Assembly: GCF_000337095.1 (NCBI RefSeq)
Contig: NZ_AOIV01000003.1
Coordinates: forward strand, 1 to 64,000
DNA from: Halogeometricum pallidum JCM 14848
Lineage (GTDB): Archaea; Halobacteriota; Halobacteria; Halobacteriales; Haloferacaceae
Direction: 5' to 3'
DNA: 64,000 nt
A model generated the notes under the pieces. The model was not told where the DNA came from. It saw only the letters and a list, made by a program, of their open reading frames with translations, and did not search any database. Numbering within the stretch: the first letter of the stretch is position 1; every line of letters begins with the position of its first letter. A program made the translations under genes and the position numbers. Shown piece by piece: positions 8,559 through 16,888 of this stretch.

Positions 8559-8579
8559 GTGCTACTCAATTAATAGTAA
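8559..8579. promoter_or_regulatory. Candidate TrmB-type operator at the trmB promoter
   Basis: CTAC-N7-ATAG (core 8562-8576) is a near copy of the perfect CTAC-N7-GTAG repeat upstream of the transporter gene. Read in another register it is TACT-N8-AGTA, similar to the TACT-N7/8-GAGTA motif I recall for Halobacterium TrmB. It covers the TATA-like box at 8569-8576, so binding should repress trmB itself. Confidence 0.5.
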
Positions 8580-8611
8580 ACATCAAGGGAGTCCGCCGAG
8601 AGGGGTGAGAT

Positions 8612-9673
8612 ATGGCAGACGAACTGCGGACGACGATGGAGAGCGTCGGGGAGCGGTTCAACCTCGGCGAGTACGAGATAGAGGCGTATCTCGCTGTCCT
8701 CGAACACGGCGAACTCACCGCCTCGGAGATAGCCGACCGGACGGACATCCCGCAACCCCGCGTGTACGACACGGTTCGGAGCCTCTCGGACCGCGGCCTC
8801 GTCGAACTCCGCGAGTCGCGCCCGATGAAGATAGTCGCCGTCGACCCCGACGACGCGTTCGCGAACGTGAAGACCTCCCTCGACGACCTCATCTCCGAAC
8901 TGGAGGCGCGCTACACGGCGCCCGCCCGCGACACCGAGGCCGTCTCGCTCGTGAAATCGCGTTCGACCATCCTCCGGTACATCGAAGAGATCATCGAGAA
9001 CGCCGAGTACGAACTCATCCTGTCGCTGACGCCGGACCTCCTGCGTCGCTTCCACGACGAACTCGCGTCGGCCATCGACGACGGCGTGAGCGTCGACCTC
9101 CTCATCACGCCGCTCTCTCGCGCCCCCGACCCGGCCGAGTTCGACTACCTCGAAGTCGCCACCATCGCGCGCGGCCGCCGGGGCATCACGACGCCCGTCC
9201 TCGCCGTCGCCGACGGCGAGTACTCGGTGTACGCGACGCAGGACGCCCTCCGCGACGACAAGGACCGCTACGGCGTCATCTTCAACCGCTCGGCGCTGGG
9301 CTTTCTCGTCAGCGGCTTTTTCGGCACCGTCCTCTGGACGACGGCCGAGACGCTGGCGACCGACGGCAAGCGCCGCCCGTTCCCCCGCCGCTACGCCTCC
9401 ATCCGCCGCGCCGTGAAGGACGTGCGCGAACTCGGCGGCGAGTTCTACGCCTCCGTCTCCGGTCGACACGTCGAATCCGGCGACTCCATCGTCGTCGAGG
9501 GGCGCGTCCACAAGACCACCTTCGAGGAGTCCGAGGAGGTCGCCTCCTTCGAGATGGAGACCGACGACGGCATTCTCGAAATCGGCGGTCTCGTCTCCGC
9601 GCTCGAAGACGTGGAGGCCCAAGAGATAATCCTGGGCCGCGACGAGGTCCCGGACCGAAAACAGTTCGTCTGA
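8612..9673 (+). CDS. TrmB-family sugar-responsive transcription regulator
   Basis: A 353-residue TrmB-type regulator. The N-terminal winged helix (about residues 8-75: [39 protein letters not shown]) binds DNA. A coiled linker follows. The middle domain (about 110-250) has the phospholipase-D-like sensor fold of the family, and the C-terminal beta-rich domain (270-353) is the sugar-sensing part in TrmB homologues. Halobacterium TrmB controls sugar and central metabolism genes. This copy is about 7 kb from the ABC sugar operon and shares operator-like repeats with it. A weak GAGGGGTGA ribosome-binding-like element precedes ATG 8612. Confidence 0.85.
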
Positions 9674-9678
9674 ATTCC

Positions 9679-10530
9679 CTATGCGGCGTCGGCGTCCGTG
9701 TCCGCATCGGCGCCCGCGCCCGCGTCGCTCTCCTCCTCCTCGAAGACGTACAGCGTCTCCCCGCAGTCCGCACAGACCAACACCTCGTCTTCGGGGTTGT
9801 CGTACACGCCCATCGTCCCGCCGCAACAGTCCAGCACCGTCGTCTCCTCCTCGGTCGGACCGCCGCAGAGCGGGCAGGATTCGAGGAACATCCGGAGCGG
9901 TGCCGTCGCCGCCGCGCGGGTCGACTCGGGCACGTCGAACGCCGCCATCGCCCGCACCGCGGCGGCGTCGGCGACGGCGTGCGCGCGGGAGAGCCAGATC
10001 GAGTTGCGCTCGCCGTCGACGGTGATGCCGTCGTACTCGACGCCGCCCTCGGCGTCGAACGGGGCGGCCTCGGCGACGGCCGCCGCCACCGTCTCGTCGT
10101 CGCGGTCGCGCAGCGACGCCATCTCCGCCTCCCACGCCGACCAGAAGTCCTCCGAGAGGTACAGCGCCCCGTCCTCGTCCTCGCGGAGGACGCCCGCCTC
10201 GAACAGCGCGAACAGCACCTGCTCGCCGTCGTCGTCGCCCAACTCGCCCGACTGGCGTACCTCCTCCTCGCCGGGGGCGTACTCGAAGAGGTGCGACAGG
10301 CCGAGTCGAGCGACGAGTCGGGGGGCGAACTCGGGCGTGCCGGGGACGACGTACCCCCGGAGGTAGACGAGCGTACCGCCGCCGACGACAGTGAGGAGGG
10401 CGACGGTCGTCGAGAGCGGCCAGAAGACGATGGCGGCGGCGAGAAGCAGCGCCGCGTTGACGACCGTGCAGGGCCAACAGCGCCGCTCGCCGGTGTAGTC
10501 GGGGCGGCGAATCGCGTCGAGAAGTGACAT
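9679..10530 (-). CDS. Membrane-anchored zinc-ribbon protein of unknown function
   Basis: The 283-residue protein begins with a short Cys-containing segment (RRCWPC). Two closely spaced membrane helices follow (about residues 22-40 and 42-60, then a VPGTPEFAPR turn). Next come a large acidic soluble region with a winged-helix-like stretch (VLFALFEAGVLREDEDG) and a C-terminal cluster with CPLCGG, CCGG and CADCGE that should bind zinc. The extreme C-terminus is an Asp/Ala low-complexity tail. It is convergent with trmB, with 5 nt between the genes. I do not recognise the family. Confidence 0.6.
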   Translation of the reverse strand: MSLLDAIRRPDYTGERRCWPCTVVNAALLLAAAIVFWPLSTTVALLTVVGGGTLVYLRGYVVPGTPEFAPRLVARLGLSHLFEYAPGEEEVRQSGELGDDDGEQVLFALFEAGVLREDEDGALYLSEDFWSAWEAEMASLRDRDDETVAAAVAEAAPFDAEGGVEYDGITVDGERNSIWLSRAHAVADAAAVRAMAAFDVPESTRAAATAPLRMFLESCPLCGGPTEEETTVLDCCGGTMGVYDNPEDEVLVCADCGETLYVFEEEESDAGAGADADTDADAA

Positions 10531-10599
10531 AGGATACCTTGGTGGCGAGGCGGACTTATGGCTTTCCCGACGGACCTCGAATCCGGGGGTCGGGACCGC

Positions 10600-11700
10600 T
10601 CAGTTCTCCGAGGAGTTCTCGACGGGCGAGTCGACGTCCGCCAACTGGACGGCCCGTCCCGTCTCCGAGGAACGGTAGATGGCGTCGATGACGCGTTGGA
10701 CCTGCAACCCCTCGGCGACGGTGTTCAGTCCGGGGTGCTCTTCGGTGCGCACGGCCTCCAAGAACAGCTTCTGTTCGGATTTGTGGGTGTCGTTGGCCTC
10801 CGTCTCCACGTCCGTGTCGGTGAGGTGGTTGCTGCCGCCGACGCCGGACTCGTAGAACGTCAGGTCGTGGCTCGCGCGGTCGTAGCGGGCGCCCGCCTCG
10901 GTGCCGAGGATGTAGAACTCGTCGTTCGTCGGGCGGTTCGACGCCCACGCGACTTCCAGCGAGACGGTTCGGCCGTCGGCACAGCGAATGAACGCCGTCG
11001 CGGAGTCGTCGACGTCGAAGCCCTCCGGGCCGATGTCCTCGCCCCACATCTCGACGAAGGCGTAGTCGTCGCGGTTGCCGAAGTCGGCGCGGGTGACGGC
11101 CGATACCTCCTCGACCTCCGGGTAGTCGAGGAAGTACAAAGAGAGGTCGATGGCGTGGACCCCGATGTCGATGACGGATCCGCCGCCGGCGACGTCCTTC
11201 GAGGTGAACCACGACCCGCGACCGGGGATGCCGCGGCGGCGGACGTAGTTCGCCTCGATGTGCTGAATCTCGCCGAACCGACCCTCGGCTTGGTAGCTCT
11301 TCAGAATGCGGACGGGGTTACCGAAGCGGTTGTTGAAGCCGACCATGCAGACGCCCTCGGCGTTCTCGGCCGCGGCGGCGATTCGCTCGGCCGACTCCAA
11401 GGAGTGCGCCAACGGCTTCTCCAGGAGGACGTGGAGGCCCGCATCGAGGGCGGCGACGGCGTACTCCTCGTGGAAGCGGTTCGGGGTCGTGATGATGACG
11501 GCGTCGACCTCCTCGAACATCTCCTCCTTCTCGTCGTAGGTGGGGACGCCGTACTTCTCGGTGAATCGGTTTCGGGCGTCCGGTTGGATGTCGAGACCGC
11601 CGCCGAGGTTCGCACCGATTTCGAGCAGGCGGTCCGCGTGGTAGTGTCCGATGTTGCCGAGGCCGACGATGCCGACGCGCGTTTGGGTCCCGGAGGTCAT
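10600..11700 (-). CDS. Gfo/Idh/MocA-family NAD(P)-dependent sugar dehydrogenase
   Basis: This 366-residue oxidoreductase has the N-terminal Rossmann motif GIVGLGNIGHYHAD (residues about 9-22), the family EKPLA at about 95-99 with the catalytic-region lysine, and GGGSVIDIGVHAIDL (about 172-186) with the Asp/His active-site pair. Such enzymes oxidise sugars or inositols, often at C1 or C3. It is the last gene of the ABC-transporter operon read from 16819, but it also has its own promoter: an ACTTAAC box at 11724-11730 about 26 nt before the ATG, overlapped by a candidate TrmB operator. The substrate is unknown. Confidence 0.87.
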   Translation of the reverse strand: MTSGTQTRVGIVGLGNIGHYHADRLLEIGANLGGGLDIQPDARNRFTEKYGVPTYDEKEEMFEEVDAVIITTPNRFHEEYAVAALDAGLHVLLEKPLAHSLESAERIAAAAENAEGVCMVGFNNRFGNPVRILKSYQAEGRFGEIQHIEANYVRRRGIPGRGSWFTSKDVAGGGSVIDIGVHAIDLSLYFLDYPEVEEVSAVTRADFGNRDDYAFVEMWGEDIGPEGFDVDDSATAFIRCADGRTVSLEVAWASNRPTNDEFYILGTEAGARYDRASHDLTFYESGVGGSNHLTDTDVETEANDTHKSEQKLFLEAVRTEEHPGLNTVAEGLQVQRVIDAIYRSSETGRAVQLADVDSPVENSSEN

Positions 11701-11706
11701 ATCCTT

Positions 11707-11727
11707 GAATTACTATCGGGGTTGTTA
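11707..11727. promoter_or_regulatory. Candidate TrmB-type operator at the dehydrogenase promoter
   Basis: GAATTAC-N7-GTTGTTA matches 11 of 14 arm positions of the perfect TAACTAC-N7-GTAGTTA repeat at 16868-16888, with the same 7-nt spacing. It lies between the TATA-like box and the start codon on the minus strand, a position usual for repression. Confidence 0.5.
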
Positions 11728-11771
11728 AGTTTCTCGTTGCGGCATCGTTCCCGGGGGCGAAACTGTCACAC

Positions 11772-11975
11772 CTAATACAGCTGACGTTCGCGCTCCTCGC
11801 GTTCGCTCTCCTCTTCCTCCTGTTGTTTCATCCGGCGACGCCCCCGGATGTACTGTCTGGTCTTCGGGACGATGATGTTCTTCAGGTCGAGGAGGAACGA
11901 GACGATACCGTACGCCCAGAAGAAAAAGAGGAACGTCACGCCGGCGATGTAGAACCACCCGAGTTCTGTGACCAT
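11772..11975 (-). CDS. Small single-span membrane protein in the sugar ABC operon
   Basis: A 67-residue protein with one hydrophobic helix (about residues 7-28, WFYIAGVTFLFFFWAYGIVS) and a highly charged, Arg/Glu-rich C-terminal tail predicted in the cytoplasm. It lies between the ATPase gene (68 nt upstream) and the dehydrogenase gene (71 nt downstream) on the same strand. The aromatic-rich helix and charged tail recall accessory subunits of membrane complexes, but no family is recognised. Its position within the operon suggests association with the importer; this is inference. Confidence 0.65.
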   Translation of the reverse strand: MVTELGWFYIAGVTFLFFFWAYGIVSFLLDLKNIIVPKTRQYIRGRRRMKQQEEEESEREERERQLY

Positions 11976-12043
11976 ATCGACTCAACGACGTGGCGGCACT
12001 TATGTCCGGTGCTGCGATAGAAAAACCGACCGCGTGCGGTCGG

Positions 12044-13234
12044 TTAGTCGTCGCTCTCGGCGGCCGTGCTGCCGTCCGCGCCGGAAGGCGCTGTCGCCGT
12101 GAGTCCGTGCGAGATAGCTTTCCCCGTCTCCGTGTCGAAGAGGTGTACCTTGGTCCGGTCCAAGACCACGTTGACATCCTGCTCCTCCGAGATATCCGAG
12201 TCGGGGTCGACGCTCATCAGCAGTTGGTCGGTCATCCCTCCGCGGGACTCCTCGTCGAGGTCCACCGTCGCGTCCTCGCTGAGCAACAGATAGACGAAGA
12301 TTTCGTCGCCCATCGGTTCGAGCACGTCCGTGACGGCCTCTATCTCCTTCGTCGGGTTAGCCAGCGACCCCGCGTCGTTGAGCGTGTAGACGTCCTCGGG
12401 GCGGATACCGAGCGTCACGTCGTCGCCCGCGGTGGCCCCCACGTCGGCGGGGTCGAAGTCAACTTCGACTTTCTCGTTTCTGAACCCGTTCTCCGTCAGT
12501 TCCCCGTCGACGAAGTTCATCGCCGGCGACCCGATGAAGCCCGCGACGAACAGGTTCGCCGGTTCGTTGTAACAGACCAGCGGCGGGTCTATCTGTTGGA
12601 GTTGGCCGGAGTCGATGACGGCGATTCTGTCGCTCATCGTCATCGCCTCCGCCTGGTCGTGCGTCACGTAGATGATGGTCGTGTCCAGTTCCTTGTGCAG
12701 GCGCTGGAGTTCCGTGCGCATGTGGACGCGGAGTTTCGCGTCGAGATTCGCCAGCGGTTCGTCCATCAGGAACACTTCCGGGTTCCGGACGATGGCGCGG
12801 GCGATGGCGACGCGCTGACGCTGTCCGCCGGACATCTCGTCGGGCATCCGGTCGAGCATGCCCTCCAACTGGACGATGTCGGAGGCGCGTTCGACGCGTC
12901 GGTCGATCTCCTCTTTATCGTACTTCCGGAGGCGGAGGCCGAACGAGATGTTGTCGTAGACGTCCATGTGGGGGAACAGCGCGATGTTTTGGAACACCAT
13001 CGCCACGCCCCGGTCCTTCGGCGGGAGGTTCGTTACCTCGTGGCCGCCGATGTAGATGGTCCCCTCCGTGGGGATGGTCAGACCGGCGATCATCTCCATC
13101 GTCGTCGACTTCCCGCAACCGGAGGGACCGACGAGGCAGACGAACTCGCCGTCCCTGATTTCGAGGTTCATCTTGTCGACGGCCGTTACGTCTTCGTACC
13201 GTTTCGTCACGTCTTCGAGGTTTACTTCTCCCAT
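12044..13234 (-). CDS. Sugar ABC transporter ATP-binding protein (MalK/UgpC type)
   Basis: A 396-residue ATPase of the CUT1 sugar-importer class. Walker A is GPSGCGKSTT (about residues 37-46), the signature is MSGGQRQRVA, Walker B is VFLMDEPLANLD and the switch histidine is in YVTHDQAEAM. After residue 240 comes the TOBE/MalK-like regulatory domain (VTLGIRPEDVYTL). The end is an acidic/Ser tail. It should energise the two permeases encoded immediately upstream (4-nt gap). The MalK type may serve several importers in one cell. Confidence 0.95.
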   Translation of the reverse strand: MGEVNLEDVTKRYEDVTAVDKMNLEIRDGEFVCLVGPSGCGKSTTMEMIAGLTIPTEGTIYIGGHEVTNLPPKDRGVAMVFQNIALFPHMDVYDNISFGLRLRKYDKEEIDRRVERASDIVQLEGMLDRMPDEMSGGQRQRVAIARAIVRNPEVFLMDEPLANLDAKLRVHMRTELQRLHKELDTTIIYVTHDQAEAMTMSDRIAVIDSGQLQQIDPPLVCYNEPANLFVAGFIGSPAMNFVDGELTENGFRNEKVEVDFDPADVGATAGDDVTLGIRPEDVYTLNDAGSLANPTKEIEAVTDVLEPMGDEIFVYLLLSEDATVDLDEESRGGMTDQLLMSVDPDSDISEEQDVNVVLDRTKVHLFDTETGKAISHGLTATAPSGADGSTAAESDD

Positions 13235-13238
13235 TGAA

Positions 13239-14201
13239 TTACTCCTTGAGTGCGCCCGCAGTCAGTCCGCTCACGATGCGTTCCTGTGCGACGATGACGA
13301 GAATCGCGACGGGGAGAACCCCGACGATGCTCGCCGCCGCCATCAGGTTGTAGGGGGTGTCGAACTGCCCCTGATACTTGAGGATGCCCGCGACGATGGG
13401 CGCCCACGAGGACGCCTCGCCGTTGTTCATCAGGAACGAGAAGAAGAACTCGTTGTAGACGCTGATGAACGTCAGGACGCCCGCCGTGGCGACGCCGGGT
13501 GCCGACAGCGGGATGATGACGCGGAACAGCGCCCCGAGTCGGGTCGTCCCTTCGACGCGCGCGGCGTCCTCCAGTCCGTCCGGAATCTGCCCGTAGAACG
13601 TCGTGAGGATGAAGATGGACAGCGGCATGAATAGCGCGCTGAACGGCAGCACCATCGGCGCCGGCGTGTTGAACAGGTCCGGCGACGAGACGGTGATGGG
13701 CCCGAGCACGAGGTTCGTCCCTCCCGTGAACAGTTGGAACAGCGGCAGGAAGAACGCCGCCGGCGGGAAGTACGAGATGGCCAGAATGGCCAACATCAGG
13801 AAGGTCCGGCCGGGGAACCGCAGACGGCCGAAGACGTAGCCCGCCAGACTCGCCAACAGGAGCACGATGACGGTCGTCGTGAGACCGAGGACGAAGCTGT
13901 TGAACATGTACAGGTGGAACGGCACCCGTTCGAACATGGTGACGAACACGCCGGGGTTGAACCCCTTCGGCAGCAGCCCCATGTTCGAGATGAGGTTGTT
14001 CGGCGTCAGCGCGAGCACTAACAGCCAGTAGAACGGGAACAGCGTGGTGACGAGGAAGAACACCGTCGCCACGTAGAACATCGATCTGTACGCGCGCTTG
14101 GGGTTCTTGATGACCTTGCCGACCCACGTCTCGAGCGGTCCCCGCTTGATCTCTGCGTCTCGGTTCGTCTCGAACGCGCCTTGTTGGTTGTCGGTCGCCA
14201 T
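13239..14201 (-). CDS. Sugar ABC transporter permease (MalG type)
   Basis: A 320-residue membrane protein with six predicted helices. The ATPase-coupling EAA loop is visible as DGLEDAARVEGTTRLG with IIPLSAPG, as in MalG/UgpE proteins. ATG 14201 (MATDNQQ) is preferred over 14222, since the longer form adds MRRRDSK and would overlap the upstream permease more. The upstream permease stop is 1 nt away, so translation is tightly linked. With the other permease it forms the transmembrane channel. Confidence 0.93.
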   Translation of the reverse strand: MATDNQQGAFETNRDAEIKRGPLETWVGKVIKNPKRAYRSMFYVATVFFLVTTLFPFYWLLVLALTPNNLISNMGLLPKGFNPGVFVTMFERVPFHLYMFNSFVLGLTTTVIVLLLASLAGYVFGRLRFPGRTFLMLAILAISYFPPAAFFLPLFQLFTGGTNLVLGPITVSSPDLFNTPAPMVLPFSALFMPLSIFILTTFYGQIPDGLEDAARVEGTTRLGALFRVIIPLSAPGVATAGVLTFISVYNEFFFSFLMNNGEASSWAPIVAGILKYQGQFDTPYNLMAAASIVGVLPVAILVIVAQERIVSGLTAGALKE

Positions 14202-14202
14202 C

Positions 14203-15231
14203 TTAGAATCCCTCCTCCGCATCGGCGAACTTCACGAGGTACACCGAGACGACGATGCCGATGAGCGCCGCCGTCACGAACGCCACCGTCGCTGACGTGG
14301 CGTACATCGAGTTGTTGAACGTCGTCACGACCAGACACGACAGCGACGGAACGGTCGTACACCCGCCCATCGTCTCGATGATGCCGTACACGCGCATCGC
14401 GCCGATGGTGCGGAACAGCATCGCGACCAGCACCGTCGGGAGGATGAGCGGGAAGGTGATCATCTTGAACTGCTGCCAGTTGGTCGCGCCGGAGACGCGC
14501 GCCACGTCGTACAGCGACCGGTCGATACTCTGCAGGCCGGCGAGGATGAGAAGCGCCATGAACGCCGTCGTCTTCCAGACGTCGGCCACGATGATGAGGA
14601 ACAGCGAGTCCGCCGTGTTACGGAGCGGCGTGAAGCTGAGCCCCAGCGTGTTCAGGAAGGTGGGATTCTGCTGCGTCCCGATGAGAAAGCCGATGTTCGG
14701 CTGGAACATCAGGTACCAGATCATCCCCTGGATGACGATGGGCACGGCCCACGGGATGATGATGGCCACGCGGACCCAGCGCCGACCGCGGAAGTCCTGG
14801 TCGAGAACGAGCGCCTGCACGAAGCCGAGAATCGTCTCGAACAGGACGCTCACGACGGTGAAGATGAGCGTCACCATCAGCGCGCTGGAGTAGATGCCCG
14901 TCACGAACGGGAACGACGAGGAGAACCCCGGCAGGAACGCCGATGGGAGCGCGAAGTCGCGTGCACCCGTGAACAACGCCACGTAGTTCTGAAGGCCCAC
15001 GAACTCGCCCAACCGCGACGACCCCGTCAACTGGTCGGCGAACAGCGAGTAGCCGAACGTCTGTATGAGGGGGTACAGCGCGATGAGCAGCAGTATCAGC
15101 AGCGCTGGTGAGAGTAGGAAGTAGGCGAACTGTGTCTCCGATAACGACTCCATCCACCGGACGGCGGAGACGTACGGACCACTCCTGGAGCTATCCCGAA
15201 GCGTGTCCCCTGAGTCTTGTTCTGTTGCCAT
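14203..15231 (-). CDS. Sugar ABC transporter permease (MalF type)
   Basis: A 342-residue permease with six to seven hydrophobic segments, the first at about residues 38-58 (YFLLSPALLILLLIALYPL). The EAA loop reads DRSLYDVARVSGATNWQQF followed by ITFPLILP, which contacts the ATPase. It follows the binding-protein gene by 46 nt and precedes the MalG-type permease. The large periplasm-side loop between the first two helices is typical of MalF/UgpA proteins, though shorter than in enteric MalF. Confidence 0.93.
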   Translation of the reverse strand: MATEQDSGDTLRDSSRSGPYVSAVRWMESLSETQFAYFLLSPALLILLLIALYPLIQTFGYSLFADQLTGSSRLGEFVGLQNYVALFTGARDFALPSAFLPGFSSSFPFVTGIYSSALMVTLIFTVVSVLFETILGFVQALVLDQDFRGRRWVRVAIIIPWAVPIVIQGMIWYLMFQPNIGFLIGTQQNPTFLNTLGLSFTPLRNTADSLFLIIVADVWKTTAFMALLILAGLQSIDRSLYDVARVSGATNWQQFKMITFPLILPTVLVAMLFRTIGAMRVYGIIETMGGCTTVPSLSCLVVTTFNNSMYATSATVAFVTAALIGIVVSVYLVKFADAEEGF

Positions 15232-15277
15232 GATAAATGATAACGTTTCGCGGGTGACTTATTCTTATCCGATAGCC

Positions 15278-16819
15278 TTACTGGCTGTTCTCGATCTGCT
15301 GAAGCGTCGATTTCAGATCGGACATCGCCTTCTGGGGCGTCTTCTCCTGTGCGTACGCCGCGTTGACCTCGGTCGCTATCTGGCTGGACTGCTGCGGCCA
15401 GACGACCGTGACCGGCCGCGGGATGGCGTTCTCGCCGGCCACCTTCAGCTGCTGCGTGTAGCGACCGATGACGTCGACGTTGGACGCCTCCTTCGAGTCG
15501 AGCAGCGACGGACGCGGCGGAATCCAACCCTGCAGACCGAAGTTCGCGAGCGCCGCATCCGGCTGCATCAGCGCGCGGAGCACCTGAACGCCGGCCTGCT
15601 TTTTCTTCGAGGGGGCGTTCGGGTTCATCGCCATGTGCCAGCCGCCGAGGGCGGCGACGGGGCCGCCCGTCATCGGGTACTGAGCCTCGTCCGCGGAGAC
15701 GCCGTACGGGATGGGCATGACGCCGAGGTCCTCGCCGAAGACGTCCTCCGCTCCGTTGATGGTGATGGAGTACGGCCAGTTGCGGTGCATGATGGCGTCG
15801 CCGCCCGTGAACGGCTTGCGCGACGGCTCTTCGGTCCACTGGAGCACCGCCTCGGGGGCGATGCCGCCGGTGATACCGTCGAGAGCCTGCTTGTCGTCTT
15901 CGCCGTTGATGAACGTGCGGACCATCTTGATGGAGTCGATGACCGGTTGCTCGTCGACGGTGATGGGACGGTCGCCGATGGGTCCGAACAGGTTCTCCTC
16001 GGGGTTGCCGAAGTACGCGCCGCCGTAGGAGGTCATGAACTCGTTGAAGTCACAGCAGGAGAGTCCCTCGTACACCGACGCCTGGAAGGTGTACCCGTAC
16101 TGGGTGTCGGAGTTGGCGTTCATCGCCTCCTTCGTGACCTTGGAGAACTGCTTCCACGACATCGACTCTGTCGCCCACTTCTCGAAGTCGGAGTCGCCGT
16201 AGCCCGCGTTCCGGAGGAGGTCCTTCCGGTACTGCATCGTCGGGAAGTCCGGGAACATCGGGATGCCGTACAGGTCCCCGTTCTCGCCCTGCGCCGTGTT
16301 GACGCTGGCCTGGAAGTACTCGTTCTCGACCGTGGAGACCATGTCGTCCGGCAGCGCCTCAGAGAGGTTCTGTATCTGGTTTCGGGCGATGAACGGAATC
16401 GTCCACCCCGAGTCCATGAGCAGGAGCGTCGGCTCCTCGCGGCCCGAACCCAGCCACTGCTGGTACTGGTTCTGCCGGTTGTTCGTCACCTGCGACCCGG
16501 CGATAACCTCGACCGTGATGTTGTCAGCCAGACCGCCCTGATTGTGTAGGATCTCACGGATGCCCTGGATGTTGTCGGACATGCGCGAGTCGCCCGCAAT
16601 CTGGACGGTGATGTCTTCGGTCACCTCGCCGGTGTCGATAGCAGTCTCGGTTCCGGAGTCGGTGGAACCGCCGCCGTTGCCCTCGCCGCCTCCGTTCGTG
16701 CTGCTGATACAGCCAGCCAGACCGACAGCAACACCGGAGGCACCAGCCGCCTTCACGAAGCGACGTCGCGAGACGCCGCTGAGCTTCCGCCTACCCTCGC
16801 GTAAATCAGTATCAACCAT
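15278..16819 (-). CDS. Sugar ABC transporter solute-binding lipoprotein
   Basis: A 513-residue extracellular binding protein of the family 1 (CUT1) type. The N-terminus has a twin-arginine export signal, SRRRFVKAAG, followed by a hydrophobic stretch and the lipobox GLAGC, so it is exported folded and lipid-anchored. A Gly/Ser/Glu-rich linker follows, then the two-lobed binding domain. It is the first gene of the operon. A TTATTTATA box (16846-16854) lies about 31 nt before the ATG and an inverted repeat just upstream of it. The ligand is probably a sugar or oligosaccharide; it cannot be named. Confidence 0.93.
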   Translation of the reverse strand: MVDTDLREGRRKLSGVSRRRFVKAAGASGVAVGLAGCISSTNGGGEGNGGGSTDSGTETAIDTGEVTEDITVQIAGDSRMSDNIQGIREILHNQGGLADNITVEVIAGSQVTNNRQNQYQQWLGSGREEPTLLLMDSGWTIPFIARNQIQNLSEALPDDMVSTVENEYFQASVNTAQGENGDLYGIPMFPDFPTMQYRKDLLRNAGYGDSDFEKWATESMSWKQFSKVTKEAMNANSDTQYGYTFQASVYEGLSCCDFNEFMTSYGGAYFGNPEENLFGPIGDRPITVDEQPVIDSIKMVRTFINGEDDKQALDGITGGIAPEAVLQWTEEPSRKPFTGGDAIMHRNWPYSITINGAEDVFGEDLGVMPIPYGVSADEAQYPMTGGPVAALGGWHMAMNPNAPSKKKQAGVQVLRALMQPDAALANFGLQGWIPPRPSLLDSKEASNVDVIGRYTQQLKVAGENAIPRPVTVVWPQQSSQIATEVNAAYAQEKTPQKAMSDLKSTLQQIENSQ

Positions 16820-16845
16820 TACAGATGGTACTGTTAGAATCAGGA

Positions 16846-16854
16846 TTATTTATA
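16846..16854 (-). promoter_or_regulatory. TATA box of the sugar ABC operon
   Basis: On the minus strand this reads TATAAATAA, a strong archaeal TATA element centred about 31 nt before the start codon, so the leader is only a few nucleotides. It is the most AT-rich promoter in the neighbourhood. Confidence 0.65.
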
Positions 16855-16867
16855 GTTTTGGTAGCAG

Positions 16868-16888
16868 TAACTACGGCAGTTGTAGTTA
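16868..16888. promoter_or_regulatory. Perfect inverted repeat, candidate TrmB operator of the ABC operon
   Basis: TAACTAC (16868-16874) and GTAGTTA (16882-16888) are perfect inverted 7-mers separated by 7 nt. The site lies about 14 bp upstream of the TATA/BRE region on the minus strand, where an activator would usually bind. Related repeats occur at the trmB and dehydrogenase promoters. Confidence 0.6.

Follow-up and report, generated by a model that had tools for sequence, protein, structure and literature searches.

Two kinds of candidate TrmB-family operators at a sugar transport locus of Halogeometricum pallidum

The sugar locus and its inverted repeats

The window, a stretch of 64,000 nucleotides from the genome of Halogeometricum pallidum JCM 14848, carries a sugar locus comprising, in order, trmB, an unknown gene, a gene for a dehydrogenase of the Gfo/Idh/MocA family, and a four-gene ATP-binding cassette (ABC) transporter of the CUT1 type, in which the solute-binding protein (SBP) gene comes first (Table 1). 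This report concerns three inverted repeats in the promoters of trmB, the dehydrogenase gene, and the transporter operon, which an earlier sequence-only reading took to be copies of one motif probably bound by the adjacent TrmB. The gene set is kept together at ortholog loci in Haloferax, Halogeometricum, Halogranum, Haloprofundus, and others. Against the equivalog model for TrmB of haloarchaea (NCBIfam NF047392, TransRegTrmBHalo), the protein in the window scores 590.8 bits, over the cutoff of 500, and trmB was found in 133 of 148 family genomes. The dehydrogenase scores under every NCBIfam cutoff, and those models give no substrate assignment. The protein encoded between these two genes (9679 to 10530, minus strand) gave no match in a Pfam search; its gene adjoins trmB in all syntenic Haloferacaceae loci (40 to 87% identity).

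Table 1. Genes and candidate regulatory features, with positions in the window unless another contig is named
Feature	Position	Strand	Basis or remark
trmB	8612..9673	+	Haloarchaeal TrmB; helix-turn-helix and sugar-binding domains (PF01978, PF11495)
Gfo/Idh/MocA-family dehydrogenase	10600..11700	-	PF01408, PF22725, PF02894
MalK-type ATPase of sugar ABC transporter	12044..13234	-	PF00005, PF17912
ABC permease	13239..14222	-	PF00528
ABC permease	14203..15231	-	PF00528
SBP, leading gene of transporter operon	15278..16819	-	PF13416, PF01547; weak match to a TAT-signal model
Type I site TACTCA-ATTA-ATAGTA, trmB promoter	8563..8578	+	33 nt upstream of start codon; conserved
Type II operator ACAAC-TGCC-GTAGT, core of the palindrome 16868-16888	16870..16883	-	Conservation; distance from BRE/TATA
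BRE/TATA of transporter operon, ACCAAAA-CTATAAATA	16847..16862	-	Sequence and conservation; TATA at 16847-16855
Type II-like site ACAAC-CCCG-ATAGT, dehydrogenase promoter	11712..11725	-	One mismatch; left half over TATA-like CTTAAC; conserved in Haloferacaceae orthologs
Probable BRE/TATA of dehydrogenase gene, ACGAGAAA-CTTAACAA	11722..11737	-	Conserved CG(T/A)GAAACTTAAC
TrmB3	G000:C45:119874-120932		353 aa; PF01978 and PF11495 both present; contig other than that of the locus

The coordinates and sequences given for the three repeats were correct. The pattern TAACTAC-N7-GTAGTTA is matched at 14 of 14 letters at 16868 to 16888 (TAACTAC-GGCAGTT-GTAGTTA, the sole exact match in the 4.38-Mb genome), at 11 of 14 at 11707 to 11727, and at 9 of 14 at 8559 to 8579. 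Matches with three or fewer mismatches exceed chance within the window (two versus 0.17 expected). The sequence-only reading had held that a random genome-wide frequency would speak against its motif, and the frequency is at that level: 24 places with three or fewer mismatches versus 37 for a reversed control pattern. The two weaker repeats therefore cannot be established by similarity alone, and the 21-mer at three mismatches was rejected as a genome-wide motif. The one genome-wide match with a single mismatch, on contig C36, lies upstream of a phenylacetate-CoA-ligase-like gene, an unrelated context, and was taken as a coincidence.

When the regions upstream of orthologous genes were compared in up to 40 additional genomes, conserved blocks appeared at all three places. 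Conservation across haloarchaeal genera thus supports all three positions, though in a register other than the one first described. The claim that all three repeats keep a 7-nt spacing held insofar as one spacing is common to all the sites, but seven nucleotides is not the true common feature: at the transporter, the supposed spacer opens with three of the best-conserved letters (AAC). What the sites have in common is a 14-bp AC-N10-GT frame whose core spacer is 4 nt long, and the 7-nt palindrome at the transporter arises from an extra AC together with GTAGT.

Two classes of conserved site

The trmB promoter carries what we call a type I site. The pattern (T/A)ACTC-N7-AGT(A/G) is conserved in 37 trmB promoters, and the site in the window fits the haloarchaeal TrmB operator, TACT(C)-N7-8-(G)AGTA, as TACTCAATTAATAGTA, though the G is not kept. 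The published consensus for Halobacterium salinarum TrmB is TACT-N7-8-GAGTA (PMC3794607). The same 16-bp frame, TACTC(G/A)-N4-(C)GAGT, precedes gapII and ppsA in the majority of genomes examined; in the window genome a type I site of the form TACTCG-N4-CGAGT precedes these two genes as well as gapI and a class II fructose-bisphosphate aldolase gene. ACTC is invariant in the collected trmB, gapII, and ppsA sites. The neighboring TrmB very probably regulates its own gene, as had been proposed. The site had also been described as a degenerate copy over the trmB TATA box; its conservation bears out the site, whereas a TATA box under 8559 to 8579 is uncertain, the AT-rich spacer of the window being unconserved.

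A type I matrix trained on the trmB, gapII, and ppsA sites ranked the site first in nearly all trmB promoters, which belong to the training set (mostly 12 to 18 bits). Dehydrogenase sites scored approximately 7 to 15 bits and ranked first in most genomes; the transporter operator scored mostly approximately 4 to 7 bits. At one mismatch, 51 type I matches occur in the window genome, a count that is not a regulon size because many fall inside coding sequence (Tyr-Ser codons). Promoters of fbp were considered as additional TrmB targets and set aside: most have no clear site within 600 nt, and fbp is apparently internal to an operon.

Two places elsewhere in the window genome were recorded. One, the type I site TACTCGGATATGAGTGA (G000:C27:63528-63544; L191), lies over the probable start codon of the NAD-type glyceraldehyde-3-phosphate dehydrogenase gene, a repressor-like position; gapII, 4 kb away, has a type I site upstream. 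The other, TACTACACGTTGAGTAAA (G000:C24:91714-91731; L112, L210), is the sole other exact TACT-N8-AGTAAA match in the genome. It is located directly upstream of a small hydrophobic open reading frame that had no match in a Pfam search and that, by eye, we take to be PQ-loop/SemiSWEET-like.

The transporter promoter belongs to a different class, type II. Its site does not fit TACT(C)-N7-8-(G)AGTA: the left half is ACAAC in 30 of 30 family transporter promoters, all of which contain ACAAC-N4-GTAGT at a near-fixed distance from the B recognition element (BRE) and TATA box, mostly preceded by a further AC. A perfect type I site is absent from every transporter promoter examined, where the best matches have 1 to 4 mismatches (mostly at least 2) and lie at scattered places. 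In the window genome, 16870 to 16883 is the only exact type II match lying in a promoter; an ACAAC match on contig C11 falls in a coding frame and was rejected as a promoter site. Five genomes of the genus each contain one exact type II match, always in the SBP promoter. The proposal of one motif and one TrmB regulon was thus not borne out. The placement of the transporter site upstream of BRE/TATA was accurate, with the operator ending 14 bp upstream of TATA.

In the Haloferax-group loci L079 to L082, the SBP promoters also contain a type I-like site (TCACTAAACTTAGAGTAC and similar; 11 to 12.6 bits) between TATA and the start codon, at -29 to -12 from the latter. This could be an added TrmB repressor site in several Haloferax SBP promoters.

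At the dehydrogenase promoter, the conserved letters TTAAC(A)...(G/A)TAGTNAA are shifted by 3 nt from the register of the sequence-only reading, and the overlap that it had noted with the TATA box was confirmed. Type II-like sequences occupy this place in most Haloferacaceae and were recorded for Halogeometricum, Haloferax, Halegenticoccus, and Halalkalirubrum; perfect ACAAC-N4-GTAGT sequences occur at the dehydrogenase in L330, L348, L369, and L376. In Halogranum the site reads TGAGTAAA, close to type I; it is a perfect type I site in Halobaculum (L340, L345), and type I also in a metagenome-assembled genome (L342). The dehydrogenase site in the window probably belongs to the type II class.

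The matrix ranking and the Halogranum sequence at the dehydrogenase promoter are what one would expect if the neighboring TrmB alone, with a relaxed sequence preference, bound all three sites, as originally proposed. The outer AC...GT frame and identical spacing common to the sites point the same way, and thermococcal TrmB provides a precedent for dual operator specificity (PMC4158304). We nevertheless regard this explanation as quite improbable: the ACTC that is invariant at the trmB, gapII, and ppsA sites is missing from the transporter operators, TrmB of Haloarcula gave no peak at the neighboring ABC operon (PMC10817205), and the operator is still there where the adjacent regulator is a TrmB paralog, TrmB3.

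TrmB3 as the probable regulator of the transporter

TrmB3 is approximately 30% identical to TrmB, and the two form separate clades. The copy in the window genome falls short of the TransRegTrmBHalo equivalog model (156.7 bits versus the cutoff of 500). Within TrmB3 there are two clades: one holds nearly every copy linked to a transporter, and the other, unlinked, comes from genomes of the window's group. In 30 loci, from Haloarcula, Natrinema, Natrialba, Halobaculum, Halobellus, Halomarina, and others, the SBP homolog has TrmB3 encoded shortly upstream. ACAAC-N4-GTNGT was detected in 20 of 23 named transporter loci with a TrmB neighbor and, with one or no mismatch, in 27 of 30 loci with a TrmB3-type adjacent regulator (chance, approximately 0.03 per promoter); in these 27, the SBP promoter has ACAAC-N4-GT(T/G)GT, or a variant differing by one letter, in the same place.

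The distribution of genes also links TrmB3 to the transporter. Among the 148 family genomes, 85 contain both SBP and TrmB3, 6 only SBP, 11 only TrmB3, and 46 neither, so that TrmB3 occurs in 85 of the 91 transporter-bearing genomes versus 11 of the 57 that lack the transporter; TrmB, by contrast, occurs in 43 of these 57. Two genomes with an SBP homolog and no TrmB3 (L250 in G019 and L254 in G040) have an SBP promoter with no type II site. In G047 and G075, a type II site lies in the trmB3 promoter, the other recurrent promoter among one-mismatch matches in the five-genome scan; at that position, the window genome and G063 have a decayed version. Unlinked trmB3 often follows a guaB/IMP-dehydrogenase-like gene (L262 to L282, and others).

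We consider it probable, at roughly 0.6, that the locus combines two kinds of TrmB-family operator, with TrmB acting at the trmB promoter and TrmB3 at the transporter operator and probably also at the dehydrogenase site. TrmB-family proteins would thus be the likely binders of these conserved regulatory sites, as first suggested; the neighboring TrmB, however, is probably not the controller of the transporter, a role that would fall to TrmB3, as an activator judging from the operator position. The rule that the position of a site relative to BRE/TATA sets the direction of regulation is taken from work on Thermococcus, Pyrococcus, and haloarchaea (PMC10817205, PMC4158304). TrmB would bind 8563 to 8578 and control its own gene, plus central carbon (gluconeogenic/glycolytic) genes elsewhere. 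Depending on a sugar signal, TrmB3 would bind 16870 to 16883 just upstream of BRE/TATA and help to recruit TBP and TFB, turning the transporter on, and at 11712 to 11725 its binding would occlude TATA, leading to repression of the dehydrogenase gene. The earlier activator/repressor reading from position fits the transporter and the dehydrogenase. The trmB3 gene adjoins the transporter in several haloarchaeal families and is separated from it in the window's group of Haloferacaceae.

Several points weigh against this assignment. The right half in the window's group is GTAGT, unlike the GTTGT/GTGGT seen beside TrmB3; TrmB itself might read that half, since gapII of L127, L128, and L132 and trmB of L093 and L094, which are undoubted targets of TrmB, show GTAGT as a variant half-site; the co-occurrence P value (4e-21) is inflated by kinship of the genomes; and unlinked trmB3 promoters outside the genus show no type II site. 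The first two would fit a composite operator, in which TrmB3 reads the left ACAAC and TrmB the right GTAGT, jointly or in competition, placing the transporter under two sugar sensors. All site-bearing promoters next to TrmB have GTAGT (once ATAGT) as the right half, those next to TrmB3 have GTTGT, GTGGT, or similar, and an additional AC located 3 nt upstream (AC-N-ACAAC) typifies the GTAGT set. The right half would then have changed when TrmB replaced TrmB3 as the neighbor, with one promoter wired to two sensors. Yet GTAGT is retained with no adjacent TrmB in L244, L255, L335, and L379, it follows the TrmB3 clade equally well, and the type I matrix score at the transporter is weak; a composite operator therefore seems unlikely to us. 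Binding of the type II sites by another haloarchaeal sugar regulator, such as GfcR or an IclR-type protein, appears very improbable. GfcR does activate sugar catabolism in Haloferax and Haloarcula (PMC11519228), but the consistent neighboring regulator in other families is TrmB3, and the type II frame equals that of the TrmB sites.

Relation to known TrmB systems

Haloarchaea hold many uncharacterized TrmB paralogs, and in several families one of them can now be paired with a particular operator and target. The point of interest is a distinct operator that most likely belongs to such a paralog, one separated in this genome from its target. A transporter-adjacent regulator need not be the controlling one, which calls for caution in naming regulons from adjacency and a palindrome. 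The prediction is directly testable in Haloferax, which has the locus together with TrmB and TrmB3, and in Haloarcula.

The window TrmB resembles that of Hbt. salinarum (VNG1451C) in passing the equivalog model, and the trmB, gapII, gapI, ppsA, and aldolase sites fit its consensus and kind of target. Unlike these, the transporter site and, probably, the dehydrogenase site (ACAAC-N4-RTAGT) lie outside the consensus. Haloarcula hispanica TrmB (HAH_1548) has a neighborhood of the same kind, with trmB and an ABC transporter. Its 15 sites listed from chromatin immunoprecipitation sequencing include none at the adjacent ABC operon, and a further paralog, HAH_1557, flanks the transporter (PMC10817205; for the sites, Table 2 therein). 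In the Haloarcula loci L362, L385, L386, and L388, the paralog beside SBP is TrmB3-type, and from its position we infer that HAH_1557 is TrmB3; in the window's group, unlike Haloarcula, TrmB3 is encoded elsewhere. We know of no function for HAH_1557.

In Thermococcales, TrmB recognizes TACT-N3-AGTA at malE and a half site at mdxE, and TrmBL1/Tgr recognizes TATCAC-N5-GTGATA. The spacing and sequence in the window differ from these, its operator is asymmetric, and its presumed regulator is unlinked to the target. On this reading, the two systems are alike in having sugar ABC operons under the TrmB family, paralogs with differing site specificity, and a direction of regulation set by position relative to BRE/TATA.

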